In this document: one piece after another, positions 27,205 through 64,000 of the stretch
How the letters are laid out: each line of letters begins with the position of its first letter
Numbering within the stretch: the first letter of the stretch is position 1
DNA from: Plumapathes pennacea
Taxonomy: Eukaryota > Cnidaria > Anthozoa > Antipatharia > Myriopathidae
Length of the DNA stretch: 64,000 nt
Assembly (NCBI GenBank): GCA_964036295.1
Contig: OZ038468.1
Location: 9,064,848-9,128,847, forward strand
Direction: 5' to 3'
The notes under the pieces: model-generated
The model's input: the letters and a program-made list of their open reading frames with translations, nothing else
What the model was told of the DNA's origin: nothing
The model's database searches: none
Program-made: the position numbers and the translations under genes

Positions 27205-27309
27205 ATGTGGCGTGCTCTTAAAAGTGGTTATGGATATTTTCCAAGAGGTAGGGAAGGATAAAGGACCATTTCGAGAAAAAGAAAATTTTTGGAAAATTTT
27301 TTCCCAGAG

Positions 27310-27491: not shown

Positions 27492-27512
27492 TCTTTCTTT
27501 TATACCCTAGTC

Positions 27513-35994: not shown

Positions 35995-36211
35995 ATGTGG
36001 CGTGCTCTTAAAAGTGGTTATGGATATTTTCCAAGAGGTAGGGAAGGATAAAGGACCATTTCGAGAAAAAGAAAATTTTTGGAAAATTTTTTCCCAAAGT
36101 CTCCAAAACCGAGGATGTGTCGAAAGGGGACCACTGAAGCTTTTGGCACTTCCCTTTGGACAACACCGAGGACAAATTTTTTTTCCAAAGTCTTTCTTTT
36201 ATAACCTAGGC

Positions 36212-36492
36212 ATGTGGCGTGCTCTTAAAACTGGTTACAGACATTTTCCAAGAGGTAGGGAAGGATATAGGACCATTTGGAGAAAAAAAAAATTTTTGGA
36301 AAATTTTTTCCCAAAGGGGACCACTGCAGCTTTTGACACTTCCCTTTTGACAGCACCGAGGACAAATTTTTTTTCCAAAGTCTCCAAAACCGAGGATGCG
36401 TCCAAAGGGGACCACCGCAGCTTTTGGCACCTCCCTTTGGACAGCACCGAGGACAAATTTTTTTTCCAAAGTCTTTCTTTTATACCCTAGTC
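36212..36492 (+). repeat. 281-bp monomer with 91-bp insertion (36381-36471)
   Basis: A short-class monomer enlarged by one 91-bp piece at 36381-36471, joined at CCAAAGTCT as at the other two loci and carrying the same ACCACCGCAGC. The parent lacks the 27-bp block, so only one block is present and the length is 281 rather than 308. CCCTTTTGACAGCACC is shared with 27361-27376. Confidence 0.88.
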
Positions 36493-36769
36493 ATGTGGCG
36501 TGCTCTTAAAAGTGGTTACGGACATTTTCCAAGAGGTAGGGAAGGATATAGGACCATTTGGAGAAAAAAAAATTTTTTGGAAAATTTTTTCCCAAAGGGG
36601 ACCACTGCAGCTTTTGGCACTTTCCTTTCGACAGCACCGAGGACAAATTTTTTTTCCAAAGTCTTTCTTTTATACCCTAGTCATGTGGCGTGCTCTTAAA
36701 AGTGGTTATGGATATTTTCCAAGAGGAAGGGAAGGATATAGGATCATTTGGAGAAAAAAAAAATTTTTT

Positions 36770-39700
36770 GGAAAATTTTTTCCCAAAGGGGACCACTGCA
36801 GCTTTTGGCACTTCCCTTTGGACAGCACCGAGATCAAATTTTTTTTCCAAAGTCTTTCTTTTATACCCTAGTCATGTGGCGTGCTCTTGAAAGTGGTTAC
36901 GGACATTTTCCAAGAGGTAGGGAAGGATATAGGACCATTTGGAGGAAAAAAAAATTTTTTGGAAAATTTTTTCCCAAAAGGGACCACTGCAGCTTTTGGC
37001 ACTTCCCTTTGGACAGCACCGAGATCAAATTTTTTTTCCAAAGTCTTTCTTTTATACCCTAGTCATGTGGCGTGCTTTTAAAAGTGGTTACGGACATTTT
37101 CCAAGAGGTAGGGAAGGATATAGGACCATTTGGAGGAAAAAAAAATTTTTGGAAAATTTTTTCCCAAAGGGGACCACTGCAGCTTTTGGCACTTCCCTTT
37201 GGACAGCACGCAGGACAAGTTTTTTTTCCAAAGTCTTTCTTTTATACCCTAGTCATGTGGCGTGCTCTTAAAAGTGGTTACGGACATTTTCCAAGAGGTA
37301 GGGAAGGATATAGGACCATTTGGAGAAAAAAAAAATTTTTTGGAAAATTTTTTCCCAAAGGGGACCACTGCAGCTTTTGGCACTTTCCCTTGGACAGCAC
37401 CGAGGACAAATTTTTTTTCCAAAGTCTTTCTTTTACACCCAAGTCATGTGGCGTGCTCTTAAAAGTGGTTATGGATATTTTCCAAGAGGTAGGGAAGGAT
37501 AAAGGACCATTTCGAGAAAAAGAAAATTTTTGGAAAATTTTTTCCCAAAGTCTCCAAAACCGAGGATGTGTCGAAAGGGGACCACTGAAGCTTTTGGCAC
37601 TTCCCTTTGGACAACACCGAGGACAAATTTTTTTTCCAAAGTCTTTCTTTTATACCCTAGTCATGTGGCGTGCTCTTAAAAGTGGTTACGGACATTTTCC
37701 AAGAGGTAGGGAAGGATATAGGACCATTTGGAGAAAAAAAAAATTTTTTGGAAAATTTTTTCCCAAAGGGGACCACTGCAGCTTTTGGTACTTTCCTTTG
37801 GACAGCACCGAGGACAAATTTTTTTCCAAAGTCTTTCTTTTCTACCCTAGTCATGTGGCGTGCTCTTAAAAGTGGTTACGGACATTTTCCAAGAAGTAGG
37901 GAAGGATATAGGACCATTTGGAGAAAAAAAAATTTTTTGGAAAATTTTTTCCCAAAGGGGACCACTGCAGCTTTTGGCACTTTTCTTTGGACAGCACCGA
38001 GGACAAATTTTTTTTCCAAAGTCTTTCTTTTATACCCTAGTCATGTGGCGTGCTCTTGAAAGTGGTTATGGATATTTTCCAAGAGGTAGGGAAGGATATA
38101 GGACCATTTGGAGAAAAAAAAATTTTTGGAAAATTTTTTTCCCAAAGCCTCCAAAACCGAGGATGCGTCCAAAGGGGACCACTGCAGCTTTTGGCACTTC
38201 CCTTTGCACAGCACCGAGGACAAATTTTTTTCCAAAGTCTTTCTTTTATACCCTAGTCATGTGGCGTGCTCTTAAAAGTGGTTACGGACATTTTCCAAGA
38301 GGTAGGGAAGGATATAGGACCATTTGGAGAAAAAAAAAATTTTTTGGAAAATTTTTTCCCAAAGGGGACCACTGCAGCTTTTGGCACTTTCCTTTGGACA
38401 GCACCGAGGACAAATTTTTTTTCCAAAGTCTTTCTTTTACACCCAAGTCATGTGGCGTGCTCTTAAAAGTGGTTATGGATATTTTCCAAGAGGTAGGGAA
38501 GGATAAAGGACCATTTCGAGAAAAAGAAAATTTTTGGAAAATTTTTTCCCAAAGTCTCCAAAACCGAGGATGTGTCGAAAGGGGACCACTGAAGCTTTTG
38601 GCACTTCCCTTTGGACAACACCGAGGACAAATTTTTTTTCCAAAGTCTTTCTTTTATACCCTAGTCATGTGGCGTGCTCTTAAAAGTGGTTACGGACATT
38701 TTCCAAGAGGTAGGGAAGGATATAGGAACATTTGGAGAAAAAAAAAATTTTTTGGAAAATTTTTTCCCAAAGGGGACCACTGCAGCTTTTGTCACTTTCC
38801 TTTGGACAGCACCGAGGACAAATTTTTTTCCAAAGTCTTTCTTTTATACCCTAGTTATGGGGCACGCTCTTAAAAGTGGTTACGGACATTTTCCAAGAGG
38901 TAGGGAAGGAAATAGGACCATTTGGAGAAAAAGAACATTTTTGGGAAAATTTTTTCCCAAAGGGGACCACTGCAGCTTTTCGCAGTTCCCTTTGGACAGC
39001 ACCGAGATCAAATTTTTTTTCCAAAGTCTTTCTTTTATACCCTAGTCATGTGGCGTGCTCTTAAAAGTGGTTACGGACATTTTCCAAGAGGTAGGGAAGG
39101 ATATAGGACCATTTGGAGAAAAAAAAATTTTTTGGAAAATTTTTTCCCAAAGGTGACCACTGCAGCTTTTGGCACTTTCCTTTGGACAGCACCGAGGACA
39201 AATTTTTTTTCCAAAGTCTTTCTTTTATACCCTAGTCATGTGGCGTGCTCTTAAAAGTGGTTATGGATATTTCCCAAGAGGTAGGGAAGGATATAGGACC
39301 ATTTGGAGAAAAAAAACATTTTTTGGAAAATTTTTTCCGAAAGGGTACCACTGCAGCTTTTGGCACTTCCCTTTGGACAGCACCGAGATCAAATTTTTTT
39401 TCCAAAGTCTTTCTTTTATACCCTAGTCATGTGGCGTGCTCTTAAAAGTGGTTATGGATATTTTCCAAGAGGTAGGGAAGGATATAGGACCATTTGGAGG
39501 AAAACAAATATTTCGAAAATTTTTTCCCAAAGTCTCCAAAACCGAGGATGTGTCGAAAGGGGACCACTGAAGCTTTTGGCACTTCCCTTTGGACAACACC
39601 GAGGACAAATTTTTTTCCAAAGTCTTTCTTTTATACCCTAGTCATGTGGCGTGCTCTTGAAAGTGGTTATGGATATTTTCCAAGAGGTAGGGAAGGATAT

Positions 39701-42700
39701 AGGACCATTTGGAGAAAAAAAAATATTTGGGAAAATTTTTTCCCAAAGCCTCCAAAACCGAGGATGTGTCCAAAGGGGACCACTGCAGCTTTTGACACTT
39801 CCCTTTGGACAGCACCGAAGACAAATTTTTTTTCCAAAGTCTTTCTTTTATACCCTAGTCATGTGGCGTGCTCTTAAAAGTGGTTACGGTCATTTTCCAA
39901 GAGGTAGGGAAGGATATAGGACCATTTGGAGAAAAAAAAAATTTTTTGGAAAATTTTTTCCCAAAGGGGACCACTGCAGCTTTTGGCACTTCCCTTTGGA
40001 CAGCACCGAGGACAAATTTTTTTTCCAAAGTCTTTCTTTTACACCCAAGTCATGTGGCGTGCTCTTAAAAGTGGTTATGGATATTTTCCAAGAGGTAGGG
40101 AAGGATAAAGGACCATTTCGAGAAAAAAAAAATTTTTGGAAAATTTTTTCCCAAAGTCTCCAAAACCGAGGATGTGTCGAAAAGGGACCACTGAAGCTTT
40201 TGGCACTTCCCTTTGGACAGCACCGAGGACAATTTTTTTTTCCAAAATCTTTCTTTTATAACCTAGGCATGTGGCGTGCTCTTAAAAGTGGTTACGGACA
40301 TTTTCCAAGAGGTAGGGAAGGATATAGGACCATTTAGAGAAAAAAAAAATTTTTTGGAAAATTTTTTCCCAAAGGGGACCACTGCAGCTTTTGGCACTTC
40401 CCTTTGGACAGCACCGAGGACAAATTTTTTTTCCAAAGTCTTTCTTTTACACCCAAGTCATGTGGCGTGCTCTTAAAAGTGGTTATGGATATTTTCCAAG
40501 AGGTAGGGAAGGATATAGGACCATTTGGAGAAAAAAAAAATTTTTGGAAAATTTTTTCCCAAAGTCTCCAAAACCGAGGATGTGTCGAAAGGGGACCACT
40601 GAAGCTTTTGGCACTTCCCTTTGGACAACACCGAGGACAAATTTTTTTTCCAAAGTCTTTCTTTTATAACCTAGGCATGTGGCGTGCTCTTAGAACTGGT
40701 TACAGACATTTTCCAAGAGGTAGGGAAGGATATAGGACCATTTGGAGAAAAAAAAAATTTTTTGGAAAATTTTTTCCCAAAGGGGACCACTGCAGCTTTT
40801 GGCACTTCCCTTTGGACAGCTCCGAGGACAAATTTTTTTTCCAAAGTCTTTCTTTTACACCCAAGTCATGTGGCGTGCTCTTAAAAGTGGTTATGGATAT
40901 TTTCCAAGAGGTAGGGAAGGATAAAGAACCATTTCGAGAAAAAAAAAATTTTTGGAAAATTTTTTCCCAAAGTCTCCAAAACCGAGGATGTGTCGAAAGG
41001 GGACCACTGAAGCTTTTGGCACTTCCCTTTGGACAACACCGAGGACAAATTTTTTTTCCAAAATCTTTCTTTTATAACCTAGGCATGTGGCGTGCTTTTA
41101 AAACTGGTTACAGACATTTTCCAAGAGGTAGGGAAGGATATAAGACCATTTGGAGAAAAAAAAATTTTTTGGAAAATTTTTTCCCAAAGGGGACCACTGC
41201 AGCTTTTGACACTTCCCTTTGGACAGCACCGAGGACAAATTTTTTTTCCAAAGTCTTTCTTTTATACCCTAGTCATGTGGCGTGCTCTCAAAAGTGGTTA
41301 CGGACATTTTCCAAGAAGTAGGGAAGGATATAGGACCATTTGGAGAAAAAAAAATTTTTTTGGAAAATTTTTTCCCAAAGGGGACCACTGCAGCTTTTGG
41401 CACTTCCCTTTGGACAGCACCGAATACAAATTTTTTTTCCAAAGTCTTTCTTTTATACCCTAGTCATGTGGCGTGTTCTTAAAAGTGGTTATGGATATTT
41501 TCCAAGAGGTAGGGAAGGATATAGGACCATTTGGAGAAAAAAAAATTTTTGGAAAATTTTTTCCCAAAGCCTCCAAAACCGAGGATGCGTCCAAAGGGGA
41601 CCACTGCAGCTTTTGGCACTTCCCTTTGCACAGCACCGAGGACAATTTTTTTTTCCAAAGTCTTTCTTTTACACCCAAGTCATATGGCGTGCTCTTAAAA
41701 GTGGTTATGGATATTTCCCAAGAGGTAGGGAAGGATAAAGGACCATTTGGAGAAAAAAAAAATTTTTGGAAAATTTTTTCCCAAAGTCTCAAAAACCGAG
41801 GATGTGTCCAAAGGGGACCACTGCAGCTTTTGACACTTCCCTTTGGACAGCACCGAGGACAAATTTTTTTTCCAAAGTCTTTCTTTTATACCCTAGTCAT
41901 GTGGCGTGCTCTTAAAAGTGGTTACGGACATTTTCCAAGAAGTAGGGAAGGATATAGGACCATTTGGAGAAAAAAAAATTTTTTGGAAAATTTTTTCCCA
42001 AAGGGGACCACTGCAGCTTTTGGCACTTTTCTTTGGACAGCACCGAGGACAAATTTTTTTTCCAAAGTCTTTCTTTTATACCCTAGTCATGTGGCGTGCT
42101 CTTGAAAGTGGTTATGGATATTTTCCAGAAGGTAGGGAAGGATATAGGACCATTTGGAGAAAAAAAAATTTTTGGAAAATTTTTTCCCAAAGCCACCAAA
42201 ACCGAGGATGCGTCCAAAGGGGACCACTGCAGCTTTTGGCACTTCCCTTTGCACAGCACCGAGGACAAATTTTTTTTCCAAAGTCTTTCTTTTACACCCA
42301 AGTCATGTGGCGTGCTCTTAAAAGTGGTTATGGATATTTCCCAAGAGGTAGGGAAGGATAAAGGACCATTTGGAGAAAAAAAAAATTTTTGGAAAATTTT
42401 TTCCCAAAGCCTCCAAAACCGAGGATGCGTCCAAAGGGGACCACTGCAGCTTTTGGCACTTCCCTTTGCACAGCACCGAGGACAAATTTTTTTTCCAAAG
42501 TCTTTCTTTTACACCCAAGTCATGTGGCGTGCTCTTAAAAGTGGTTATGGATATTTTCCAAGAGGTAGGGAAGGATAAAGGACCATTTCGAGAAAAAAAA
42601 AATTTTTCGAAAATTTTTTCCCAAAGTCTCCAAAACCGAGGATGTGTCGAAAGCGGACCACTGAAGCTTTTGGCACTTCCCTTTGGACAACACCGAGGAC

Positions 42701-45194
42701 AAATTTTTTTTCCAAAATCTTTCTTTTATAACCTAGGCATGTGGCGTGCTCTTAAAACTGGTTACAGACATTTTCCAAGAGGTAGGGAAGGATATAGGAC
42801 CATTTGAAGAAAAAAAAAATTTTTGGAAAATTTTTTCCCAAAGGGGACCACTGCAGCTTTTGGCACTTCCCTTAGGACAGCACCGAGGACTAATTTTTTT
42901 TCCAAAGTCTTTCTTTTATACCCTAGTCATGTGGCGTGCTCTCAAAAGTGGTTACGGACATTTTCCAAGAGGTAGGGAAGAATGTAGGACCATTTGGAGA
43001 AAAAAAAAATTTTTTTGGAAAATTTTTTCCCAAAGGGGACCACTGCAGCTTTTGGCACTTCCCTTTGGACAGCACCGAGGACAAATTTTTTTTCCAAAGT
43101 CTTTCTTTTATACCCTAGTCATGTGGCGTGCTCTTAAAAGTGGTTACGGACATTTTCCAAGAGGTAGGGAAGGATATAGGACCATTTGGAGAAAAAAAAA
43201 ATTTTTCGAAAATTTTTTCCCAAAGGGGACCACTGCAGCTTTTGGCACTTCCTTTTGGACAGCACCGAGGACAAATTTTTTTCCAAAGTCTTTCTTTTAT
43301 ACCCTAGTCATGTGGAGTTCTCTTAAAAGTGGTTATGGATATTTTCCAAGAGGTAGGGAAGGATATAGGACCATTTGGAGGAAAACAAATGTTTCGAAAA
43401 TTTTTTCGCAAAGCCTCCAAAACCGAGGATGCCTCCAAAGGGGACCACTGCAGCTTTTGGCACTTCCCTTTGGACAGCACCGAGGACAAATTTTTTTTCC
43501 AAAGTCTTTCTTTTACACCCAAGTCATGTGGCGTGCTCTTAAAAGTGGTTATGGATATTTTCCAAGAGGTAGGGAAGGATAAAGGACCATTTGGAGAAAA
43601 AAAAAATTTTTGGAAAATTTTTTCCCAAAGTCTCCAAAACCGAGGATGTGTCGAAAGGGGACCACTGAAGCTTTTGGCACTTCCCTTTGGACAACACCGA
43701 GGACAAATTTTTTTCCAAAGTCTTTCTTTTATACCCTAGTCATGTGGCGTGCTCTTGAAAGTGGTTATGGATATTTTCCAAGCGGTAGGGAAGGATATAG
43801 GACCATTTGGAGAAAAAAAAATTTTTGGGAAAATTTTTTCCCAAAGCCTCCAAAACCGAGGATGTGTCCAAAGGGGACCACTGCAGCTTTTGACACTTCC
43901 CTTTGGACAGCACCGAGGACAAATTTTTTTTCCAAAGTCTTTCTTTTATACCCTAGTCATGTGGCGTGCTCTTAAAAGTGGTTACGGTCATTTTCCAAGA
44001 GGTAGGGAAGGATATAGGACCATTTGGAGAAAAAAAAAATTTTTTGGAAAATTTTTTCCCAAAGGGGACCACTGCAGCTTTTCGCACTTCCCTTTGGACA
44101 GCACCGAGGACAAATTTTTTTTCCAAAGTCTTTCTTTTACACCCAAGTCATGTGGCGTGCTCTTAAAAGTGGTTATGGATATTTTCCAAGAGGTAGGGAA
44201 AGATAAAGGACCATTTCGAGAAAAAAAAAATTTTTGGAAAATTTTTTCCCAAAGTCTCCAAAACCGAGGATGTGTCGAAAGGGGACCACTGAAGCTTTTG
44301 GCACTTCCCTTTGGACAGCACCGAGGACAAATTTTTTTTCCAAAATCTTTCTTTTATAACCTAGGCATGTGGCGTGCTCTTAAAACTGGTTACAAACATT
44401 GTCCAAGAGGTAGGGAAGGATATAGGACCATTTGGAGAAAAAAAAAATTTTTTGAAAAATTTTTTCCCAAAGGGGACCACTGCAGCTTTTGACACTTCCC
44501 TTTGGACAGCTCCGAGGACAAATTTTTTTTCCAAAGTCTTTCTTTTATACCCTAGTCATGTGGTGTGCTCTTAAAAGTGGTTACGGACATTTTCCAAGAG
44601 GTAGGGAAGAATATAGGACCATTTGGAGAAAAAAAAAATTTTTTTGGAAAATTTTTTCCCAAAGGGGACCACTGCAGCTTTTGGCACTTCCCTTTGGACA
44701 GCACCGAGGACAAATTTTTTTTCCAAAGTCTTTCTTTTATACCCTAGTCATGTGGCGTGCTCTTAAAAGTGGTTACGGACATTTTCCAAGAGGTAGGGAA
44801 GGATATAGGACCATTTGGAGAAAAAAAAATTTTTGGAAAATCTTTTCCCAAAGGGGACCACTGCAGCTTTTGACACTTCCCTTTGGACAGCTCCGAGGAC
44901 AAATTTTTTTTCCAAAGTCTTTCTTTTATACCCTAGTCATGTGGCGTGCTCTTAAAAGTGGTTACGGACATTTTCCAAGAGGTAGGGAAGAATATAGGAC
45001 CATTTGGAGAAAAAAAAAATTTTTTTGGAAAATTTTTTCCCAAAGGGGACCACTGCAGCTTTTGGCACTTCCCTTTGGACAGCACCGAGGAGAAATTTTT
45101 TTTCAAAAGTTTTTCTTTTATACCCTAGTCATGTGGCGTGCTCTTAAAAGTGGTTACGGACATTTTCCAAGAGGTAGGGAAGGATATAGGACCA
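36770..45194 (+). repeat. Large duplicated segment, copy 1 (about 8.4 kb seen)
   Basis: This stretch recurs at 55576-64000. Every monomer anchor from 36881 to 45138 has a partner 18,805-18,806 bp downstream. I found two differences: A10 versus A9 near 37330/56135, and A9 versus A10 near 41350/60155. Rare states are all shared, for example AGCACGCAGGACAAG (37207), GGTACTTTCC (37788), TTCTACCC (37840), GTTATGGGGCACGC (38855), CACCGAATACAAA (41419) and GTGGAGTTCTC (43312). It contains mixed monomers to about 42.9 kb, then d, e'/h, i, j, e'', a, b, with the usual order partly restored. Confidence 0.93.
38857..39047 (+). repeat. Variant-anchor short monomer, family member 2
   Basis: It has GTTATGGGGCACGCTC in place of GTCATGTGGCGTGCTC and GGAAATAGGACC. 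It descends from the same ancestor as 34279-34469 and is copied again at 57662-57852 within the 18.8-kb duplication. Confidence 0.83.
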
Positions 45195-46998
45195 TTTGGA
45201 GAAAAAAAAATTTTTTGGAAAATGTTTTCCCAAAGGGGACCACTGCAGCTTTTGGCACTTCCCTTTGGACAGCACCGAGGACAAATTTTTTTTCCAAAGT
45301 CTTTCTTTTATACCCTAGTCATGTGGCGTGCTCTTAAAAGTGGTTATGGATATTTTCCAAGAGGTAGGGAAGGATATAGGACCATTTGGAGGAAAACAAA
45401 TATTTCGAAAATTTTTTCGCAAAGCCTCCAAAACCGAGGATGCGTCAGAAGGGGACCACTGCAGCTTTTGGCACTTCCCTTTGGACAGCACCGAGGACAA
45501 ATTTTTTTTCCAAAGTCTTTCTTTTACACCCAAGTCATGTGGGGTGCTCTTAAAAATGGTTATGGATATTTTCCAAGAGGTAGGGAAGGATAAAGGACCA
45601 TTTGGAGAAAAAAAAAATTTTTGGAAAATTTTTTCCCAAAGTCTCCAAAACCGAGGATGTGTCGAAAGGGGACCACTGAAGCTTTTGGCACTTCCCTTTG
45701 GACAACACCGAGGACAAATTTTTTTTCCAAAGTCTTTCTTTTATAACCTAGGCATGTGGCGTGCTCTTAAAACTGGTTACAGACATTTTCCAAGAGGTAG
45801 GGAAGGATATAGGATCATTTGGAGAAAAAAAAAAATTTTTGGAAAACTTTTTCCCAAAGGAGACCACTGCAGCTTTTGACACTTCCCTTTGGACAGCTCC
45901 GAGGACAAATTTTTTTTCCAAAGTCTTTCTTTTATACCCTAGTCATGTGGCGTGCTCTTAAAAGTGGTTACGGACATTTTCCAAGAGGTAGGGAAGAATA
46001 TAGGACCATTTGGAGAAAAAAAATTTTTTGGAAAATGTTTTCCCAAAGGGGACCACTGCAGCTTTTGGCACTTCCCTTTGGACAGCACCGAGGACAAATT
46101 TTTTTTCCAAAGTCTTTCTTTTATACCCTAGTCATGTGGCGTGCTCTTAAAAGTGGTTATGGATATTTTCCGAGAGGTAGGGAAGGATATAGGACCATTT
46201 GGAGGAAAACAAATATTTCGAAAATTTTTTCGCAAAGCCCCCAAAACCGAGGATGCGTCCAAAGGGGACCACTGCAGCTTTTGGCACTTCCCTTTGGACA
46301 GCACCGGAACAAATTTTTTTTCCAAAGTCTTTCTTTTACACCCAAGTCATGTGGCGTGCTCTTAAAAGTGGTTATGGATATTTTCCAAGAGGTAGGGAAG
46401 GATAAAGGACCATTTGGAGAAAAAAAAAATTTTTGGAAAATTTTTTCCCAAAGTCTCCAAAACCGAGGATGTGTCGAAAGGGGACCACTGAAGCTTTTGG
46501 CACTTCCCTTTGGACAACACCGAGGACAAATTTTTTTTCCAAAGTCTTTCTTTTATAACCTAGGCATGTGGCGTGCTCTAAAAACTGGTTACAGACATTT
46601 TCCAAGAGGTAGGGAAGGATATAGGACCATTTGGAGAAAAAAAAAATTTTTGGAAAAATTTTTCCCAAAGTCTCCAAAACCGAGGATGTGTCGAAAGGGG
46701 ACCACTGAAGCTTTTGGCACTTCCCTTTGGACAACACCGAGGACAAATTTTTTTCCAAAGTCTTTCTTTTATACCCTAGTCATGTGGCGTGCTCTTGAAA
46801 GTGGTTATGGATATTTTCCAAGAGATAGGGAAGGATATAGGACCATTTGGAGAAAAAAAAATATTTGGGAAAATTTTTTCCCAAAGCCTCCAAAACCGAG
46901 GATGTGTCCAAAGGGGACCACTGCAGCTTTTGACACTTCCCTTTGGACAGCACCGAGGACAAATTTTTTTTCCAAAGTCTTTCTTTTATACCCTAGTC
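44367..46998 (+). repeat. HOR copy in the right part, 13 monomers (2,632 bp)
   Basis: The order is a, b, short (spacer TC), b, c, d, e, f, g, d', e', h, i. It re-establishes the HOR order after the 20-kb mixed zone, with one extra short-b pair and without j and e'' at the end. The d' monomer at 46134 has CCGAGAGGTAGGG and GCACCGGAACAAA (a one-base loss in CACCGAGGACAAA). Confidence 0.82.
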
Positions 46999-48195
46999 AT
47001 GTGGCGTGCTCTTAAAAGTGGCTACGGACATTTTCCAAGAGGTAGGGAAGGATATAGGACCAATTGGAGAAAAAAAAAATTTTTTGGAAAATGTTTTCCC
47101 AAAGGGGACCACTGCAGCTTTTGGCACTTCCCTTTGGACAGCACCGAGGACAAATTTTTTTTCCAAAGTCTTTCTTTTATACCCTAGTCATGTGGCGTGC
47201 TCTTAAAAGTGGTTACGGACATTTTCCAAGAGGTAGGGAAGGATATAGGACCATTTGGAGAAAAAAAAATTTTTTGGAAAATGTTTTCCCAAAGGGGACC
47301 ACTGCAGCTTTTGGCACTTCCCTTTGGACAGCACCGAGGACAAATTTTTTTTCCAAAGTCTTTCTTTTATACCCTAGTCATGTGGCGTGCTCTTAAAAGT
47401 GGTTATGGATATTTTCCAAGAGGTAGGGAAGGATATAGGACCATTTGGAGGAAAACAAATATTTCGAAAATTTTTTCGCAAAGCCTCCAAAACTGAGGAT
47501 GCGTCAGAAGGGGACCACTGCAGCTTTTGGCACTTCCCTTTGGACAGCACCGAGGACAAATTTTTTTTCCAAAGTCTTTCTTTTACACCCAAGTCATGTG
47601 GCGTGCTCTTAAAAATGGTTATGGATATTTTCCAAGAGGTAGGGAAGGATAAAGGACCATTTGGAGAAAAAAAAAATTTTTGGAAAATTTTTTCCCAAAG
47701 TCTCCAAAACCGAGGATGTGTCGAAAGGGGACCACTGAAGCTTTTGGCACTTCCCTTTGGACAACACCGAGGACAAATTTTTTTTCCAAAGTCTTTCTTT
47801 TATAACCTAGGCATGTGGCGTGCTCTTAAAAGTGGTTACAGACATTTTCCAAGAGGTAGGGAAGGATATAGGATCATTTGGAGAAAAAAAAAAATTTTTG
47901 GAAAACTTTTTCCCAAAGGGGACCACTGCAGCTTTTGACACTTCCCTTTGGACAGTTCCGAGGACAAATTTTTTTTCCAAAGTCTTTCTTTTATACCCTA
48001 GTCATGTGGCGTGCTCTTAAAAGTGGTTACGGACATTTTCCAAGAGGTAGGGAAGAATATAGGACCATTTGGAGAAAAAAAAAATTTTTTTGGAAAATTT
48101 TTTCCCAAAGGGGACCACTGCAGCTTTTGGCACTTCCCTTTGGACAGCACCGAGGACAAATTTTTTTTCCAAAGTCTTTCTTTTATACCCTAGTC

Positions 48196-49008
48196 ATGTG
48201 GCGTGCTCTTAAAAGTGGTTACGGACATTTTCCAAGAGGTAGGGAAGGATATAGGACCATTTGGAGAAAAAAAAAATTTTTGGAAAATTTTTTCCCAAAG
48301 GGGACCACTGCAGCTTTTGGCACTTCCCTTTGGACAGCACCCAGGACAAGTTTTTTTTCCAAAGTCTTTCTTTTATACCCTAGTCATGTGGCGTGCTCTT
48401 AAAAGTGGTTACGGACATTTTCCAAGAGGTAGGGAAGGATATAGGACCATTTGGAGAAAAAAAAATTTTTTGGAAAATTTTTTCCCAAAGGGGACCACTG
48501 CAGCTTTTGGCACTTTTCTTTGGTCAGCACCGAGGACAAATTTTTTTTCCAAAGTCTTTCTTTTATACCCTAGTCATGTGGCGTGCTCTTGAAAGTGGTT
48601 ATGGATATTTTCCAAGAGGTAGGGAAGGATATAGGACCATTTGGAGAAAAAAAAATTTTTGGAAAATTTTTTCCCAAAGCCTCCAAAACCGAGGATGCGT
48701 CCAAAGGGGACCACTGCAGCTTTTGGCACTTCCCTTTGCACAGCACCGAGGACAAATTTTTTTTCCAAAGTCTTTCTTTTACACCCAAGTCATGTGGCGT
48801 GCTCTTAAAAGTGGTTATGGATATTTCCCAAGAGGTAGGGAAGGATAAAGGACCATTTGGAGAAAAAAAAAATTTTTGGAAAATTTTTTCCCAAAGTCTC
48901 CAAAACCGAGGATGTGTCCAAAGGGGACCACTGCAGCTTTTGACACTTCCCTTTGGACAGCACCGAGGACAAATTTTTTTTCCAAAGTCTTTCTTTTATA
49001 CCCTAGTC
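48196..49008 (+). repeat. k-l-m-n module, copy 3
   Basis: Same four-monomer module as at 15005 and 21735, with the l marker GGTCAGCACC near 48521. It sits after an f-b pair and before a g-d pair, as in the other two copies. Confidence 0.84.
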
Positions 49009-51912: not shown

Positions 51913-51926
51913 CGAAAAATTTTTCG
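51913..51926. other. Perfect 14-bp palindrome at a d-type core
   Basis: CGAAAAATTTTTCG is fully self-complementary with no spacer. In this d-type monomer (51828-52043), TATTTCG became TAATTCG and A4-T6 became A5-T5. One T-to-A change at the centre turns the spaced dyad into a perfect palindrome. Confidence 0.85.
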
Positions 51927-52367
51927 CAAAGCCTCCAAAACCGAGGATGCGTCCAAAGGGGACCACTGCAGCTTTTGGCACTTCCCTTTGCACAGCACCG
52001 AAGACAAATTTTTTTTCCAAAGTCTTTCTTTTACACCCAAGTCATGTGGCGTGCTCTTAAAAGTGGTTATGGATATTTCCCAAGAGGTAGGGAAGGATAA
52101 AGGACCATTTGGAGAAAAAAAAAATTTTTGGAAAATTTTTTCCCAAAGTCTCCAAAACCGAGGATGTGTTCAAAGGGGACCACTGCAGCTTTTGACACTT
52201 CCCTTTGGACAGCACCGAGGACAAATTTTTTTTCCAAAGTCTTTCTTTTATACCCTAGTCATGTGGAGTGCTCTTAAAAGTGGTTACGGACATTTTCCAA
52301 GAGGTAGGGAAGGATATAGGACCATTTGGAGAAAAAAAATTTTTTGGAAAATGTTTTCCCAAAGGGA

Positions 52368-53778
52368 ACCACTGCAGCTTTTGGCACTTCCCTTTGGACA
52401 GCACCGAGGACAAATTTTTTTTCCAAAGTCTTTCTTTTATACCCTAGTCATGTGGCGTGCTCTTAAAAGTGGTTATGGATATTTTCCAAGAGGTAGGGAA
52501 GGATATAGGACCATTTGGAGGAAAACAAATATTTCGAAAATTTTTTCGCAAAGCCTCCAAAACCGAGGATGCGTCCAAAGGGGACCACTGCAGCTTTTGG
52601 CACTTCCCTTTGGACAGCCCGAGGACAAATTTTTTTTCCAAAGTCTTTCTTTTACACCCAAGTCATGTGGCGTGCTCTTAAAAGTGGTTATGGATATTTT
52701 CCAAGAGGTAGGGAAGAATAAAGGACCATTTGGAGAAAAAAAAAATTTTTGGAAAATTTTTTCCCAAAGTCTCCAAAACCGAGGATGTGTCGAAAGGGGA
52801 CCACTGAAGCTTTTGGCACTTCCCTTTGGACAACACCGAGGACAAATTTTTTTTCCAAAGTCTTTCTTTTATAACCTAGGCATGTGGCGTGCTCTTAAAA
52901 CTGGTTACAGACATTTTCCAAGAGGTAGGGAAGGATATAGGACCATTTGGAGAAAAAAAAAAATTTTGGAAAATTTTTTCCCAAAGGGGACCACTGCAGC
53001 TTTTGACACTTCCCTTTGGACAGCTCCGAGGACAAATTTTTTTTCCAAAGTCTTTCTTTTATACCCTAGTCATGTGGCGTGCTCTTAAAAGTGGTTACGG
53101 ACATTTTCCAAGAGGTAGGGAAGAATATAGGACCATTTGGAGAAAAAAAAATTTTTTTTGGAAAATTTTTTACCAAAGGGGACCACTGCAGCTTTTGGCA
53201 CTTCCCTTTGGACAGCACCGAGGAGAAATTTTTTTTCCAAAGTCTTTCTTTTATACCCTAGTCATGTGGCGTGCTCTTAAAAGTGGTTACGGACATTTTC
53301 CAAGAGGTAGGGAAGGATATAGGACCATTTGGAGAAAAAAAACATTTTTTGGAAAATTTTTTCCCAAAGGGGACCACTGCAGCTTTTGGCACTTCCCTTT
53401 GGACAGCACCGAGGACAAATTTTTTTTCCAAAGTCTTTCTTTTACACCCAAGTCATGTGGCGTGCTCTTAAAAGTGGTTATGGATATTTTCCAAGAGGTA
53501 GGGAAGGATAAAGGACCATTTCGAGAAAAAAAAAATTTTTGGAAAATTTTTTCCCAAAGTCTCCAAAACCGAGGATGTGTCCAAAGGGGACCACTGCAGC
53601 TTTTGACACTTCCCTTTGGACAGCACCGAGGACAAATTTTTTTTCCAAAGTCTTTCTTTTAAACCCTAGTCATGTGGCGTGCTCTTAAAAGTGGTTACGG
53701 ACATTTTCCAAGAGGTAGGGAAGGATAAAGGACCATTTGGAGAAAAAAAATTTTTTGGAAAATGTTTTCCCAAAGGGG
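52368..53778 (+). repeat. 1,411-bp seven-monomer unit, copy 1
   Basis: Seven monomer periods (189, 215, 217, 190, 192, 191 and 217 between anchors 52268 and 53679, offset 1,411) recur at once downstream. Markers are GGACAGCCCGAGG (2-bp loss, about 52614), GGGAAGAATAAAGG (about 52711), a short A11-T4 core (about 52962), TTTTTTACCAAAGG (about 53168), A8CATTTTTTGG (about 53337) and TTTAAACCCTAG (about 53660). Confidence 0.92.
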
Positions 53779-55189
53779 ACCACTGCAGCTTTTGGCACTT
53801 CCCTTTGGACAGCACCGAGGACAAATTTTTTTTCCAAAGTCTTTCTTTTATACCCTAGTCATGTGGCGTGCTCTTAAAAGTGGTTATGGATATTTTCCAA
53901 GAGGTAGGGAAGGATATAGGACCATTTGGAGGAAAACAAATATTTCGAAAATTTTTTCGCAAAGCCTCCAAAACCGAGGATGCGTCCAAAGGGGACCACT
54001 GCAGCTTTTGGCACTTCCCTTTGGACAGCCCGAGGACAAATTTTTTTTCCAAAGTCTTTCTTTTACACCCAAGTCATGTGGCGTGCTCTTAAAAGTGGTT
54101 ATGGATATTTTCCAAGAGGTAGGGAAGAATAAAGGACCATTTGGAGAAAAAAAAAATTTTTGGAAAATTTTTTCCCAAAGTCTCCAAAACCGAGGATGTG
54201 TCGAAAGGGGACCACTGAAGCTTTTGGCACTTCACTTTGGACAACACCGAGGACAAATTTTTTTTCCAAAGTCTTTCTTTTATAACCTAGGCATGTGGCG
54301 TGCTCTTAAAACTGGTTACAGACATTTTCCAAGAGGTAGGGAAGGATATAGGACCATTTGGAGAAAAAAAAAAATTTTGGAAAATTTTTTCCCAAAGGGG
54401 ACCACTGCAGCTTTTGACACTTCCCTTTGGACAGCTCCGAGGACAAATTTTTTTTCCAAAGTCTTTCTTTTATACCCTAGTCATGTGGCGTGCTCTTAAA
54501 AGTGGTTACGGACATTTTCCAAGAGGTAGGGAAGAATATAGGACCATTTGGAGAAAAAAAAATTTTTTTTGGAAAATTTTTTACCAAAGGGGACCACTGC
54601 AGCTTTTGGCACTTCCCTTTGGACAGCACCGAGGAGAAATTTTTTTTCCAAAGTCTTTCTTTTATACCCTAGTCATGTGGCGTGCTCTTAAAAGTGGTTA
54701 CGGACATTTTCCAAGAGGTAGGGAAGGATATAGGACCATTTGGAGAAAAAAAACATTTTTTGGAAAATTTTTTCCCAAAGGGGACCACTGCAGCTTTTGG
54801 CACTTCCCTTTGGACAGCACCGAGGACAAATTTTTTTTCCAAAGTCTTTCTTTTACACCCAAGTCATGTGGCGTGCTCTTAAAAGTTGTTATGGATATTT
54901 TCCAAGAGGTAGGGAAGGATAAAGGACCATTTCGAGAAAAAAAAAATTTTTGGAAAATTTTTTCCCAAAGTCTCCAAAACCGAGGATGTGTCCAAAGGGG
55001 ACCACTGCAGCTTTTGACACTTCCCTTTGGACAGCACCGAGGACAAATTTTTTTTCCAAAGTCTTTCTTTTAAACCCTAGTCATGTGGCGTGCTCTTAAA
55101 AGTGGTTACGGACATTTTCCAAGAGGTAGGGAAGGATAAAGGACCATTTGGAGAAAAAAAATTTTTTGGAAAATGTTTTCCCAAAGGGG
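53779..55189 (+). repeat. 1,411-bp seven-monomer unit, copy 2
   Basis: Matches 52368-53778 at an offset of 1,411. I noticed CTTCACTTTGG (about 54231, for CTTCCCTTTGG) and AAAGTTGTTATGG (about 54884, for AAAGTGGTTATGG). The match continues to about 55430 as a partial third copy. There the third copy has the ordinary CAGCACCGAGG and CCACTTCAGC (about 55191). Confidence 0.92.
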
Positions 55190-55487
55190 ACCACTTCAGC
55201 TTTTGGCACTTCCCTTTGGACAGCACCGAGGACAAATTTTTTTTCCAAAGTCTTTCTTTTATACCCTAGTCATGTGGCGTGCTCTTAAAAGTGGTTATGG
55301 ATATTTTCCAAGAGGTAGGGAAGGATATAGGACCATTTGGAGGAAAACAAATATTTCGAAAATTTTTTCGCAAAGCCTCCAAAACCGAGGATGCGTCCAA
55401 AGGGGACCACTGCAGCTTTTGGCACTTCCCTTTGGACAGCACCGAGGACAAATTTTTTTTCCAAAGTCTTTCTTTTACACCCAAGTC

Positions 55488-55679
55488 ATGTGGCGTGCTC
55501 TTAAAACTGGTTACAGACATTTTCCAAGAGGTAGGGAAGAATATAGGACCATTTGGAGAAAAAAAAATTTTTTTCGGAAAATTTTTTCCCAAAGGGGACC
55601 ACTGCAGCTTTTGGCACTTCCCTTTGGACAGCACCGAGATCAAATTTTTTTTCCAAAGTCTTTCTTTTATACCCTAGTC
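55488..55679 (+). repeat. Chimeric monomer at the junction of the 18.8-kb duplication
   Basis: The left part is AAACTGGTTACAGACA with GGGAAGAATATAGG (f/b-like), then T7-8 and CGGAAAA. The right part, from 55576, matches 36770 onward with CACCGAGATCAAA. The switch lies in the T-tract just before GGAAAA. This is where the 18.8-kb copy begins, so it is the tandem-duplication join. Confidence 0.85.
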
Positions 55680-57661
55680 ATGTGGCGTGCTCTTGAAAGT
55701 GGTTACGGACATTTTCCAAGAGGTAGGGAAGGATATAGGACCATTTGGAGGAAAAAAAAATTTTTTGGAAAATTTTTTCCCAAAAGGGACCACTGCAGCT
55801 TTTGGCACTTCCCTTTGGACAGCACCGAGATCAAATTTTTTTTCCAAAGTCTTTCTTTTATACCCTAGTCATGTGGCGTGCTTTTAAAAGTGGTTACGGA
55901 CATTTTCCAAGAGGTAGGGAAGGATATAGGACCATTTGGAGGAAAAAAAAATTTTTGGAAAATTTTTTCCCAAAGGGGACCACTGCAGCTTTTGGCACTT
56001 CCCTTTGGACAGCACGCAGGACAAGTTTTTTTTCCAAAGTCTTTCTTTTATACCCTAGTCATGTGGCGTGCTCTTAAAAGTGGTTACGGACATTTTCCAA
56101 GAGGTAGGGAAGGATATAGGACCATTTGGAGAAAAAAAAATTTTTTGGAAAATTTTTTCCCAAAGGGGACCACTGCAGCTTTTGGCACTTTCCCTTGGAC
56201 AGCACCGAGGACAAATTTTTTTTCCAAAGTCTTTCTTTTACACCCAAGTCATGTGGCGTGCTCTTAAAAGTGGTTATGGATATTTTCCAAGAGGTAGGGA
56301 AGGATAAAGGACCATTTCGAGAAAAAGAAAATTTTTGGAAAATTTTTTCCCAAAGTCTCCAAAACCGAGGATGTGTCGAAAGGGGACCACTGAAGCTTTT
56401 GGCACTTCCCTTTGGACAACACCGAGGACAAATTTTTTTTCCAAAGTCTTTCTTTTATACCCTAGTCATGTGGCGTGCTCTTAAAAGTGGTTACGGACAT
56501 TTTCCAAGAGGTAGGGAAGGATATAGGACCATTTGGAGAAAAAAAAAATTTTTTGGAAAATTTTTTCCCAAAGGGGACCACTGCAGCTTTTGGTACTTTC
56601 CTTTGGACAGCACCGAGGACAAATTTTTTTCCAAAGTCTTTCTTTTCTACCCTAGTCATGTGGCGTGCTCTTAAAAGTGGTTACGGACATTTTCCAAGAA
56701 GTAGGGAAGGATATAGGACCATTTGGAGAAAAAAAAATTTTTTGGAAAATTTTTTCCCAAAGGGGACCACTGCAGCTTTTGGCACTTTTCTTTGGACAGC
56801 ACCGAGGACAAATTTTTTTTCCAAAGTCTTTCTTTTATACCCTAGTCATGTGGCGTGCTCTTGAAAGTGGTTATGGATATTTTCCAAGAGGTAGGGAAGG
56901 ATATAGGACCATTTGGAGAAAAAAAAATTTTTGGAAAATTTTTTTCCCAAAGCCTCCAAAACCGAGGATGCGTCCAAAGGGGACCACTGCAGCTTTTGGC
57001 ACTTCCCTTTGCACAGCACCGAGGACAAATTTTTTTCCAAAGTCTTTCTTTTATACCCTAGTCATGTGGCGTGCTCTTAAAAGTGGTTACGGACATTTTC
57101 CAAGAGGTAGGGAAGGATATAGGACCATTTGGAGAAAAAAAAAATTTTTTGGAAAATTTTTTCCCAAAGGGGACCACTGCAGCTTTTGGCACTTTCCTTT
57201 GGACAGCACCGAGGACAAATTTTTTTTCCAAAGTCTTTCTTTTACACCCAAGTCATGTGGCGTGCTCTTAAAAGTGGTTATGGATATTTTCCAAGAGGTA
57301 GGGAAGGATAAAGGACCATTTCGAGAAAAAGAAAATTTTTGGAAAATTTTTTCCCAAAGTCTCCAAAACCGAGGATGTGTCGAAAGGGGACCACTGAAGC
57401 TTTTGGCACTTCCCTTTGGACAACACCGAGGACAAATTTTTTTTCCAAAGTCTTTCTTTTATACCCTAGTCATGTGGCGTGCTCTTAAAAGTGGTTACGG
57501 ACATTTTCCAAGAGGTAGGGAAGGATATAGGAACATTTGGAGAAAAAAAAAATTTTTTGGAAAATTTTTTCCCAAAGGGGACCACTGCAGCTTTTGTCAC
57601 TTTCCTTTGGACAGCACCGAGGACAAATTTTTTTCCAAAGTCTTTCTTTTATACCCTAGTT

Positions 57662-57852
57662 ATGGGGCACGCTCTTAAAAGTGGTTACGGACATTTTCCA
57701 AGAGGTAGGGAAGGAAATAGGACCATTTGGAGAAAAAGAACATTTTTGGGAAAATTTTTTCCCAAAGGGGACCACTGCAGCTTTTCGCAGTTCCCTTTGG
57801 ACAGCACCGAGATCAAATTTTTTTTCCAAAGTCTTTCTTTTATACCCTAGTC
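57662..57852 (+). repeat. Variant-anchor short monomer, family member 3
   Basis: Copy of 38857-39047 within the 18.8-kb duplication. It has the same TATGGGGCACGCTC anchor and AACATTTTTGGG core. Confidence 0.83.
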
Positions 57853-60800
57853 ATGTGGCGTGCTCTTAAAAGTGGTTACGGACATTTTCCAAGAGGTAGG
57901 GAAGGATATAGGACCATTTGGAGAAAAAAAAATTTTTTGGAAAATTTTTTCCCAAAGGTGACCACTGCAGCTTTTGGCACTTTCCTTTGGACAGCACCGA
58001 GGACAAATTTTTTTTCCAAAGTCTTTCTTTTATACCCTAGTCATGTGGCGTGCTCTTAAAAGTGGTTATGGATATTTCCCAAGAGGTAGGGAAGGATATA
58101 GGACCATTTGGAGAAAAAAAACATTTTTTGGAAAATTTTTTCCGAAAGGGTACCACTGCAGCTTTTGGCACTTCCCTTTGGACAGCACCGAGATCAAATT
58201 TTTTTTCCAAAGTCTTTCTTTTATACCCTAGTCATGTGGCGTGCTCTTAAAAGTGGTTATGGATATTTTCCAAGAGGTAGGGAAGGATATAGGACCATTT
58301 GGAGGAAAACAAATATTTCGAAAATTTTTTCCCAAAGTCTCCAAAACCGAGGATGTGTCGAAAGGGGACCACTGAAGCTTTTGGCACTTCCCTTTGGACA
58401 ACACCGAGGACAAATTTTTTTCCAAAGTCTTTCTTTTATACCCTAGTCATGTGGCGTGCTCTTGAAAGTGGTTATGGATATTTTCCAAGAGGTAGGGAAG
58501 GATATAGGACCATTTGGAGAAAAAAAAATATTTGGGAAAATTTTTTCCCAAAGCCTCCAAAACCGAGGATGTGTCCAAAGGGGACCACTGCAGCTTTTGA
58601 CACTTCCCTTTGGACAGCACCGAAGACAAATTTTTTTTCCAAAGTCTTTCTTTTATACCCTAGTCATGTGGCGTGCTCTTAAAAGTGGTTACGGTCATTT
58701 TCCAAGAGGTAGGGAAGGATATAGGACCATTTGGAGAAAAAAAAAATTTTTTGGAAAATTTTTTCCCAAAGGGGACCACTGCAGCTTTTGGCACTTCCCT
58801 TTGGACAGCACCGAGGACAAATTTTTTTTCCAAAGTCTTTCTTTTACACCCAAGTCATGTGGCGTGCTCTTAAAAGTGGTTATGGATATTTTCCAAGAGG
58901 TAGGGAAGGATAAAGGACCATTTCGAGAAAAAAAAAATTTTTGGAAAATTTTTTCCCAAAGTCTCCAAAACCGAGGATGTGTCGAAAAGGGACCACTGAA
59001 GCTTTTGGCACTTCCCTTTGGACAGCACCGAGGACAATTTTTTTTTCCAAAATCTTTCTTTTATAACCTAGGCATGTGGCGTGCTCTTAAAAGTGGTTAC
59101 GGACATTTTCCAAGAGGTAGGGAAGGATATAGGACCATTTAGAGAAAAAAAAAATTTTTTGGAAAATTTTTTCCCAAAGGGGACCACTGCAGCTTTTGGC
59201 ACTTCCCTTTGGACAGCACCGAGGACAAATTTTTTTTCCAAAGTCTTTCTTTTACACCCAAGTCATGTGGCGTGCTCTTAAAAGTGGTTATGGATATTTT
59301 CCAAGAGGTAGGGAAGGATATAGGACCATTTGGAGAAAAAAAAAATTTTTGGAAAATTTTTTCCCAAAGTCTCCAAAACCGAGGATGTGTCGAAAGGGGA
59401 CCACTGAAGCTTTTGGCACTTCCCTTTGGACAACACCGAGGACAAATTTTTTTTCCAAAGTCTTTCTTTTATAACCTAGGCATGTGGCGTGCTCTTAGAA
59501 CTGGTTACAGACATTTTCCAAGAGGTAGGGAAGGATATAGGACCATTTGGAGAAAAAAAAAATTTTTTGGAAAATTTTTTCCCAAAGGGGACCACTGCAG
59601 CTTTTGGCACTTCCCTTTGGACAGCTCCGAGGACAAATTTTTTTTCCAAAGTCTTTCTTTTACACCCAAGTCATGTGGCGTGCTCTTAAAAGTGGTTATG
59701 GATATTTTCCAAGAGGTAGGGAAGGATAAAGAACCATTTCGAGAAAAAAAAAATTTTTGGAAAATTTTTTCCCAAAGTCTCCAAAACCGAGGATGTGTCG
59801 AAAGGGGACCACTGAAGCTTTTGGCACTTCCCTTTGGACAACACCGAGGACAAATTTTTTTTCCAAAATCTTTCTTTTATAACCTAGGCATGTGGCGTGC
59901 TTTTAAAACTGGTTACAGACATTTTCCAAGAGGTAGGGAAGGATATAAGACCATTTGGAGAAAAAAAAATTTTTTGGAAAATTTTTTCCCAAAGGGGACC
60001 ACTGCAGCTTTTGACACTTCCCTTTGGACAGCACCGAGGACAAATTTTTTTTCCAAAGTCTTTCTTTTATACCCTAGTCATGTGGCGTGCTCTCAAAAGT
60101 GGTTACGGACATTTTCCAAGAAGTAGGGAAGGATATAGGACCATTTGGAGAAAAAAAAAATTTTTTTGGAAAATTTTTTCCCAAAGGGGACCACTGCAGC
60201 TTTTGGCACTTCCCTTTGGACAGCACCGAATACAAATTTTTTTTCCAAAGTCTTTCTTTTATACCCTAGTCATGTGGCGTGTTCTTAAAAGTGGTTATGG
60301 ATATTTTCCAAGAGGTAGGGAAGGATATAGGACCATTTGGAGAAAAAAAAATTTTTGGAAAATTTTTTCCCAAAGCCTCCAAAACCGAGGATGCGTCCAA
60401 AGGGGACCACTGCAGCTTTTGGCACTTCCCTTTGCACAGCACCGAGGACAATTTTTTTTTCCAAAGTCTTTCTTTTACACCCAAGTCATATGGCGTGCTC
60501 TTAAAAGTGGTTATGGATATTTCCCAAGAGGTAGGGAAGGATAAAGGACCATTTGGAGAAAAAAAAAATTTTTGGAAAATTTTTTCCCAAAGTCTCAAAA
60601 ACCGAGGATGTGTCCAAAGGGGACCACTGCAGCTTTTGACACTTCCCTTTGGACAGCACCGAGGACAAATTTTTTTTCCAAAGTCTTTCTTTTATACCCT
60701 AGTCATGTGGCGTGCTCTTAAAAGTGGTTACGGACATTTTCCAAGAAGTAGGGAAGGATATAGGACCATTTGGAGAAAAAAAAATTTTTTGGAAAATTTT

Positions 60801-63800
60801 TTCCCAAAGGGGACCACTGCAGCTTTTGGCACTTTTCTTTGGACAGCACCGAGGACAAATTTTTTTTCCAAAGTCTTTCTTTTATACCCTAGTCATGTGG
60901 CGTGCTCTTGAAAGTGGTTATGGATATTTTCCAGAAGGTAGGGAAGGATATAGGACCATTTGGAGAAAAAAAAATTTTTGGAAAATTTTTTCCCAAAGCC
61001 ACCAAAACCGAGGATGCGTCCAAAGGGGACCACTGCAGCTTTTGGCACTTCCCTTTGCACAGCACCGAGGACAAATTTTTTTTCCAAAGTCTTTCTTTTA
61101 CACCCAAGTCATGTGGCGTGCTCTTAAAAGTGGTTATGGATATTTCCCAAGAGGTAGGGAAGGATAAAGGACCATTTGGAGAAAAAAAAAATTTTTGGAA
61201 AATTTTTTCCCAAAGCCTCCAAAACCGAGGATGCGTCCAAAGGGGACCACTGCAGCTTTTGGCACTTCCCTTTGCACAGCACCGAGGACAAATTTTTTTT
61301 CCAAAGTCTTTCTTTTACACCCAAGTCATGTGGCGTGCTCTTAAAAGTGGTTATGGATATTTTCCAAGAGGTAGGGAAGGATAAAGGACCATTTCGAGAA
61401 AAAAAAAATTTTTCGAAAATTTTTTCCCAAAGTCTCCAAAACCGAGGATGTGTCGAAAGCGGACCACTGAAGCTTTTGGCACTTCCCTTTGGACAACACC
61501 GAGGACAAATTTTTTTTCCAAAATCTTTCTTTTATAACCTAGGCATGTGGCGTGCTCTTAAAACTGGTTACAGACATTTTCCAAGAGGTAGGGAAGGATA
61601 TAGGACCATTTGAAGAAAAAAAAAATTTTTGGAAAATTTTTTCCCAAAGGGGACCACTGCAGCTTTTGGCACTTCCCTTAGGACAGCACCGAGGACTAAT
61701 TTTTTTTCCAAAGTCTTTCTTTTATACCCTAGTCATGTGGCGTGCTCTCAAAAGTGGTTACGGACATTTTCCAAGAGGTAGGGAAGAATGTAGGACCATT
61801 TGGAGAAAAAAAAAATTTTTTTGGAAAATTTTTTCCCAAAGGGGACCACTGCAGCTTTTGGCACTTCCCTTTGGACAGCACCGAGGACAAATTTTTTTTC
61901 CAAAGTCTTTCTTTTATACCCTAGTCATGTGGCGTGCTCTTAAAAGTGGTTACGGACATTTTCCAAGAGGTAGGGAAGGATATAGGACCATTTGGAGAAA
62001 AAAAAAATTTTTCGAAAATTTTTTCCCAAAGGGGACCACTGCAGCTTTTGGCACTTCCTTTTGGACAGCACCGAGGACAAATTTTTTTCCAAAGTCTTTC
62101 TTTTATACCCTAGTCATGTGGAGTTCTCTTAAAAGTGGTTATGGATATTTTCCAAGAGGTAGGGAAGGATATAGGACCATTTGGAGGAAAACAAATGTTT
62201 CGAAAATTTTTTCGCAAAGCCTCCAAAACCGAGGATGCCTCCAAAGGGGACCACTGCAGCTTTTGGCACTTCCCTTTGGACAGCACCGAGGACAAATTTT
62301 TTTTCCAAAGTCTTTCTTTTACACCCAAGTCATGTGGCGTGCTCTTAAAAGTGGTTATGGATATTTTCCAAGAGGTAGGGAAGGATAAAGGACCATTTGG
62401 AGAAAAAAAAAATTTTTGGAAAATTTTTTCCCAAAGTCTCCAAAACCGAGGATGTGTCGAAAGGGGACCACTGAAGCTTTTGGCACTTCCCTTTGGACAA
62501 CACCGAGGACAAATTTTTTTCCAAAGTCTTTCTTTTATACCCTAGTCATGTGGCGTGCTCTTGAAAGTGGTTATGGATATTTTCCAAGCGGTAGGGAAGG
62601 ATATAGGACCATTTGGAGAAAAAAAAATTTTTGGGAAAATTTTTTCCCAAAGCCTCCAAAACCGAGGATGTGTCCAAAGGGGACCACTGCAGCTTTTGAC
62701 ACTTCCCTTTGGACAGCACCGAGGACAAATTTTTTTTCCAAAGTCTTTCTTTTATACCCTAGTCATGTGGCGTGCTCTTAAAAGTGGTTACGGTCATTTT
62801 CCAAGAGGTAGGGAAGGATATAGGACCATTTGGAGAAAAAAAAAATTTTTTGGAAAATTTTTTCCCAAAGGGGACCACTGCAGCTTTTCGCACTTCCCTT
62901 TGGACAGCACCGAGGACAAATTTTTTTTCCAAAGTCTTTCTTTTACACCCAAGTCATGTGGCGTGCTCTTAAAAGTGGTTATGGATATTTTCCAAGAGGT
63001 AGGGAAAGATAAAGGACCATTTCGAGAAAAAAAAAATTTTTGGAAAATTTTTTCCCAAAGTCTCCAAAACCGAGGATGTGTCGAAAGGGGACCACTGAAG
63101 CTTTTGGCACTTCCCTTTGGACAGCACCGAGGACAAATTTTTTTTCCAAAATCTTTCTTTTATAACCTAGGCATGTGGCGTGCTCTTAAAACTGGTTACA
63201 AACATTGTCCAAGAGGTAGGGAAGGATATAGGACCATTTGGAGAAAAAAAAAATTTTTTGAAAAATTTTTTCCCAAAGGGGACCACTGCAGCTTTTGACA
63301 CTTCCCTTTGGACAGCTCCGAGGACAAATTTTTTTTCCAAAGTCTTTCTTTTATACCCTAGTCATGTGGTGTGCTCTTAAAAGTGGTTACGGACATTTTC
63401 CAAGAGGTAGGGAAGAATATAGGACCATTTGGAGAAAAAAAAAATTTTTTTGGAAAATTTTTTCCCAAAGGGGACCACTGCAGCTTTTGGCACTTCCCTT
63501 TGGACAGCACCGAGGACAAATTTTTTTTCCAAAGTCTTTCTTTTATACCCTAGTCATGTGGCGTGCTCTTAAAAGTGGTTACGGACATTTTCCAAGAGGT
63601 AGGGAAGGATATAGGACCATTTGGAGAAAAAAAAATTTTTGGAAAATCTTTTCCCAAAGGGGACCACTGCAGCTTTTGACACTTCCCTTTGGACAGCTCC
63701 GAGGACAAATTTTTTTTCCAAAGTCTTTCTTTTATACCCTAGTCATGTGGCGTGCTCTTAAAAGTGGTTACGGACATTTTCCAAGAGGTAGGGAAGAATA

Positions 63801-63936
63801 TAGGACCATTTGGAGAAAAAAAAAATTTTTTTGGAAAATTTTTTCCCAAAGGGGACCACTGCAGCTTTTGGCACTTCCCTTTGGACAGCACCGAGGAGAA
63901 ATTTTTTTTCAAAAGTTTTTCTTTTATACCCTAGTC

Positions 63937-64000
63937 ATGTGGCGTGCTCTTAAAAGTGGTTACGGACATTTTCCAAGAGGTAGGGAAGGATATAGGACCA
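63937..64000 (+). repeat. Partial monomer at the right edge
   Basis: The first 64 bases of a c-like short monomer, ending within GGATATAGGACCA. The copy-1 counterpart starts at 45131. Confidence 0.9.

Follow-up and report, generated by a model that had tools for sequence, protein, structure and literature searches.

The window, meaning the whole stretch of Plumapathes pennacea DNA analyzed here, comprises 64,000 bases (C7:9064848-9128847). The genome to which it belongs totals 290,015,204 bases, assembled in 24 contigs. Two long, nearly identical pieces of a satellite array lie in tandem within it, which raises the question of whether the array was recently duplicated at this place, and by what route, or whether one unit was written twice during assembly. 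The window was examined together with 100 kb of flank on each side, giving 264,000 bases, 12,700 of which read N.

A single array of 190- and 217-bp monomers

The window consists throughout of one satellite array whose 190- and 217-bp monomers all share a single orientation.

1..64000, plus strand: satellite array with monomer classes of ~190 bp (A), 217 bp (B), and 91 bp (s), delimited by motif spacing and class consensus

Monomers are mostly 189 to 192 bp or 215 to 218 bp long, and 33 monomers of 91 bp are present in the window and flanks. Between a point 99.8 kb left of the window and window coordinate 80.8 kb, successive monomer starts are never more than 407 bp apart; the array fills the 100-kb left flank and on the right extends at least 6.4 kb beyond the second copy described below. 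The counts of identical monomer pairs given below refer to 919 monomers in ~181 kb of array. Removing the 27 bp between two copies of CCAAAG from the 217-bp consensus yields 190 bp, and removing the 126 bp between two copies of CCAAAGTCT yields 91 bp, so that the length classes fit losses between short direct repeats. Randomly drawn monomers of the same class are ~95% alike by a rough edit distance (0.949 and 0.951, 120 pairs per class), and the mean difference across all monomer classes is 13.7%, with gaps counted and A/T-run columns excluded.

Across the genome, a conserved 31-mer of the satellite is matched exactly 1,037 times in forward and 483 times in reverse orientation, and the matches listed all lie on C7, from 6.88 to 7.28 Mb; the 181 kb around the window contains 296 forward and 0 reverse matches. 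Another 38 listed matches (5 of 127 candidates scored) are likewise on C7, as are 6 of 6 from a further search. The GAGATCAAAT monomer variant, a 37-mer with 150 exact matches, all forward, occupies C7 8.837-9.012 Mb among the matches listed (from C7:8837206 onward) and may mark a sub-family at this end of the block. Exact searches of both strands of the ~181 kb with the CENP-B-box consensus gave 0 matches, a result that excludes nothing where species do not use the box. Among the papers listed in a literature search by monomer length, none named a satellite that could be tied to this array.

A unit of 93 monomers is doubled in tandem in the assembly

In the assembly, a unit of 18,806 bp, equal to 93 satellite monomers, is present twice in direct succession, and we refer to the pair as the doublet.

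36770..55575, plus strand: copy 1, 93 monomers
55576..64000, plus strand: first 8,425 bp of copy 2, whose remainder lies beyond the window and ends at 74381 (74444 with the shared tract)

An earlier, sequence-only reading had described positions 36770-45194 and 55576-64000 as nearly identical apart from two single-A differences, at a period of about 18.8 kb. Gapped alignment returned exactly two 1-base A indels, and the measured period is 18,806 bp. The same reading predicted that the right flank would repeat 45195-55575, which was borne out in the same assembly: positions 45195-55638 recur at 64001-74444 with 7 substitutions and 0 indels. Over the full 18,869 bp, 7 substitutions and 2 one-base indels thus separate the copies. 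The unit spans whole monomers (n = 93), from the monomer start at 36783 to that at 55589. Leftward of 36770 and 55576, the match decays: the first 450 bp already contain substitutions as well as gaps of 26 and 91 bp. When the region was aligned to itself by BLAST (pieces of at least 2,500 bp and at least 98% identity), ten pieces were recovered, of which the doublet measures 19.8 kb including its diverged edges and the next 5.2 kb.

This agreement is far from what monomer pairs in the array otherwise present. In register at lag 93, 84/93 monomer pairs are letter-identical, versus 0.24% among all monomer pairs, and up to 30 monomers in a row are identical at lag 93, versus at most 9 at the next best lags. 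Of the unit's 93 monomers, 47 were found only in the two copies within the ~181 kb.

Edges and junction of the doublet

The left edge, the junction between the copies, and the right edge share an identical tract of 63 bp.

36770..36832, plus strand: left-edge tract of 63 bp, with the same sequence as the junction and right-edge tracts
55576..55638, plus strand: 63-bp tract joining the copies, the candidate place of exchange; the sequence across the junction (55568-55645) is present a single time genome-wide
74382-74444, outside the window, plus strand: 63-bp tract at the right edge, identical to the left-edge and junction tracts

Past these 63 bp, the right edge diverges from the left edge and the junction; before them, the left edge diverges from the junction and the right edge. 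When the two outer sites were compared directly, identity among aligned bases was 95.3% across the 800 bp to the left, where 186 columns are gaps, and 94.9% across the 800 bp to the right, where 68 are, values that resemble the identity of random same-class monomers (0.949 and 0.951). Where inspected, the gaps between the outer sites have the size of the monomer length classes (26 and 91 bp). As read from the sequence, such a pattern is the mark that exchange between misaligned monomers would leave.

Recombination between misaligned repeats is an ordinary growth route of satellite arrays. We favor, with a probability of roughly three in four (0.77), a single recent tandem duplication of 93 monomers (18,806 bp) by homologous recombination between misaligned places of one array. 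Two such places would have paired and been joined at the same monomer point, presumably by a crossover within the 63-bp tract; unequal exchange of this kind, between sister chromatids or homologues, would double the 93-monomer block and leave the array longer by 93 monomers, with the seven substitutions probably arising afterward. The 63-bp shared tract, the ~95% homology on both sides of it, and the whole number of monomers support exchange between misaligned monomers, as do the single junction and two copies counted genome-wide and the other collinear duplications of the array (both described below), and the doublet has the features expected of unequal exchange, namely, a single homologous junction at the same monomer point and a whole monomer number. 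Against unequal exchange, the homology on the left is gap-rich, with a 91-bp shift ~350 bp left of the edge. No function of the 18,806-bp unit is implied. As to the partners, a human pedigree study (PMC12240836) reports that 0 of 27 new euchromatic structural changes lay at meiotic crossovers and speaks against exchange between homologues for those changes; if this euchromatic result applied here, sister exchange would be the likelier of the two.

The duplication could also have been replicative, through break-induced replication or the reinsertion of an excised circle, with no crossover. The homology at the junction would be usable by that route too, and break-induced replication and rolling-circle copies are both named as sources of satellite growth in a review (PMC8122249). 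However, a rolling circle would be expected to often leave several copies, whereas the assembly has two, and the copies differ at only one of the 800 bases left of the junction, so that no mutation burden is seen there. We regard a replicative origin as quite unlikely, while noting that a crossover and a single round of replicative copying look the same from sequence by itself.

Copy number and the assembly

Two unit-private patterns, chosen from k-mers present exactly twice in the 264 kb, have 2 matches each genome-wide, 18,806 and 18,805 bases apart, and the junction pattern has 1 match. The assembly therefore contains two copies and one junction. (An earlier candidate for a private pattern, the GAGATCAAAT 37-mer, was rejected for its 150 matches genome-wide.) As in a higher-order repeat (HOR), the similarity of the copies (7 substitutions and 2 indels in 18,869 bp) far exceeds that of random same-class monomers (~5% different), but the unit is not repeated many times as a regular period. 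The doublet is one duplication in this assembly, not an amplified higher-order array, and is at most an HOR seed. The sequence-only reading had left a choice between a recent amplification of a super-unit and an artefact; the recency and the duplication stand as the favored side of that choice, and the term amplification does not, given private patterns found twice and a junction found once.

The organism might nevertheless carry more than two copies, collapsed to two by the assembly, a situation compatible with the origin by unequal exchange. The known copies are nearly identical, but any collapsed copy would presumably need to agree with one or the other of them at every distinguishing site along a stretch longer than a read, and we consider additional copies very unlikely.

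In the opposite error, one unit would have been written twice because haplotypes were laid end to end, a graph loop was walked twice, or an error-tolerant overlap between similar monomers was accepted. The identity of the copies is very high and lies inside a long satellite, both indels fall at A-runs, as consensus noise would, and the edges are ~95% alike, so that a noise-tolerant assembler could misjoin them and leave the picture of an unequal exchange. HiFi reads of 15 to 20 kb fail to span many satellites, and a misassembled (collapsed) tandem duplication is described, according to a HiFi study (PMC12400953). Yet the outer sites are exactly identical over only 63 bp, and an exact-overlap assembler would presumably need a molecule bearing the junction. 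The copies are also separable: the largest intervals free of any separating substitution or edge are 11,459 bp (54887-66346) and 10,771 bp (36769-47540), both shorter than reads of 15 to 20 kb, the median HiFi length given in the same study (PMC12400953). None of the 12,700 N letters in the 264,000 bases falls within the duplicated stretch. On balance, an assembly artefact appears unlikely.

Differences between the copies

The substitutions and indels that separate the copies are located as follows.

47540..54887, plus strand: part of copy 1 with all seven substitutions (47540, 47723, 52002, 52170, 52367, 54631, 54887)
37335 (versus 56141), plus strand: 1-base A in copy 1, absent from copy 2, at the end of an A-run
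41355 (versus 60160), plus strand: site where copy 2 alone has one extra A, at the end of an A-run

The seven substitutions each set a base common in the array against a less frequent one, which belongs to copy 1 at four sites and to copy 2 at three. The odd bases of copy 2 are each the sole occurrence among matched contexts in the ~181 kb; for those of copy 1, the occurrences number 2, 2, 5, and 19, out of 308 to 569 contexts. Position 47723 has two frequent states, of which the common base is one. The odd base at 52002 is less unusual (19/529) and could have been copied from a neighbor. The pattern suggests that most of the substitutions are point mutations that followed the duplication.

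None of the seven substitutions falls outside the right 43% of the unit (P = 0.0027 if placement were uniform, computed after the pattern had been seen), and this confinement raises the possibility that a second event is overlaid on the first. Small numbers would account for it, as would a conversion tract laid down later or an exchange whose partners were two slightly different homologues. In one elaboration, the doublet would be a newborn 93-monomer proto-higher-order unit before amplification, and a second homogenizing tract of up to ~10.8 kb would, once the duplication had occurred, have overwritten one copy on its left side, an event recorded by the restriction of substitutions to the right 43%; we hold this combination to be unlikely.

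The divergence of the copies is 7/18,869 sites, or 3.7e-4. An insect-like mutation rate is 3e-9 per site and generation; at this rate, with two lineages, the age would be on the order of 60,000 generations, if the differences do not predate the event. The human centromere mutation rates of 1.01e-7 and 3.27e-8 given in PMC12240836 would yield ~1,800 or ~5,700 generations under the same proviso. Since the differences may predate the duplication, we claim no date for it.

Other duplications in the array and on the contig

The array contains other collinear duplications as well: a scan for a mean difference of at most 2% in 12-monomer windows (A/T-run columns excluded) gave 63 segments. Among the 40 of these 63 that were listed, the next longest after the doublet has lag 53 and extends over 45 monomers, which differ by 0.84%; another spans 26 monomers at lag 24 (0.82%). 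Window positions 1-15000 and the 5 kb to their left hold overlapping older duplications, e.g., 45 monomers at a 10.8-kb lag (0.84%), as well as a 13-monomer period of ~2.66 kb. The doublet is surrounded by older kilobase-scale duplications.

Elsewhere on C7, satellite spacings among the matches listed are exactly 10,226 bp four consecutive times at C7:7160132-7201036, where the readable parts repeat without difference at lag 10,226, and 12,396 to 12,397 bp three consecutive times at C7:7109949-7147329. By their spacing, both are apparently other long-period amplifications.

Comparison with known systems

The doublet corresponds to the unequal crossover model of Smith (1976), as presented in PMC8122249, in that an out-of-register exchange doubles a block and leaves a homologous junction; no tested feature of the doublet conflicts with the model as given there. 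In the human pedigree study (PMC12240836), 18 new structural changes were observed in 150 centromere transmissions, 13 of them in alpha-satellite HOR arrays, where they involved whole HOR units of 680 to 12,228 bp. The likeness lies in the kilobase-scale gain or loss of whole monomers in a satellite array; unlike those changes, which affected established HORs and were seen from parent to child, the doublet is a two-copy, 93-monomer unit of 18,806 bp known from its assembled end state alone. The Drosophila histone cluster, for which unequal sister chromatid exchange is treated in PMC12400953, shares the change in tandem-unit copy number and the risk of misassembly, but it is a gene cluster, whereas the doublet is satellite DNA without recognized genes. 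The doublet is larger than the HOR changes of the pedigree, yet of a known kind, and represents ordinary satellite dynamics, cleanly resolved. As a base-resolved example of satellite array growth, it directly displays both edges, the tract where exchange probably took place, and the positions at which the copies differ; it is one datable event and opens no new mechanism.

Open reading frames, RNA, and the right flank

The window contains 142 open reading frames of at least 120 aa, 137 of them on the plus strand, a bias that is probably compositional, the satellite being stop-poor on one strand. A Pfam scan of 2 of the 142 gave no match at the cut-off (Tau95_N reached 16.6 bits versus 23.1), and the frames were set aside as genes and taken to be accidents of the repeat. 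An Rfam search of the window, one of 7 sequences searched in all, gave no match at the gathering score. Three stretches of the right flank contain 1, 0, and 0 open frames of at least 150 aa; the one frame (L015:1598-2125, plus strand, 175 aa) has no Pfam match.

Right of the array lie two pieces of rRNA sequence, one at L014:1807-2275 (minus strand) with 5.8S and the start of 28S and a long 28S piece at L018:1-2656 (minus strand). They are ~35 and 73 to 76 kb past the last satellite letters seen (Rfam; LSU_rRNA_eukarya match), and the array may adjoin a nucleolar organizer. The long 28S piece ends abruptly at the conserved TCTCTTAAGGT motif, a known place for R2-type insertions.
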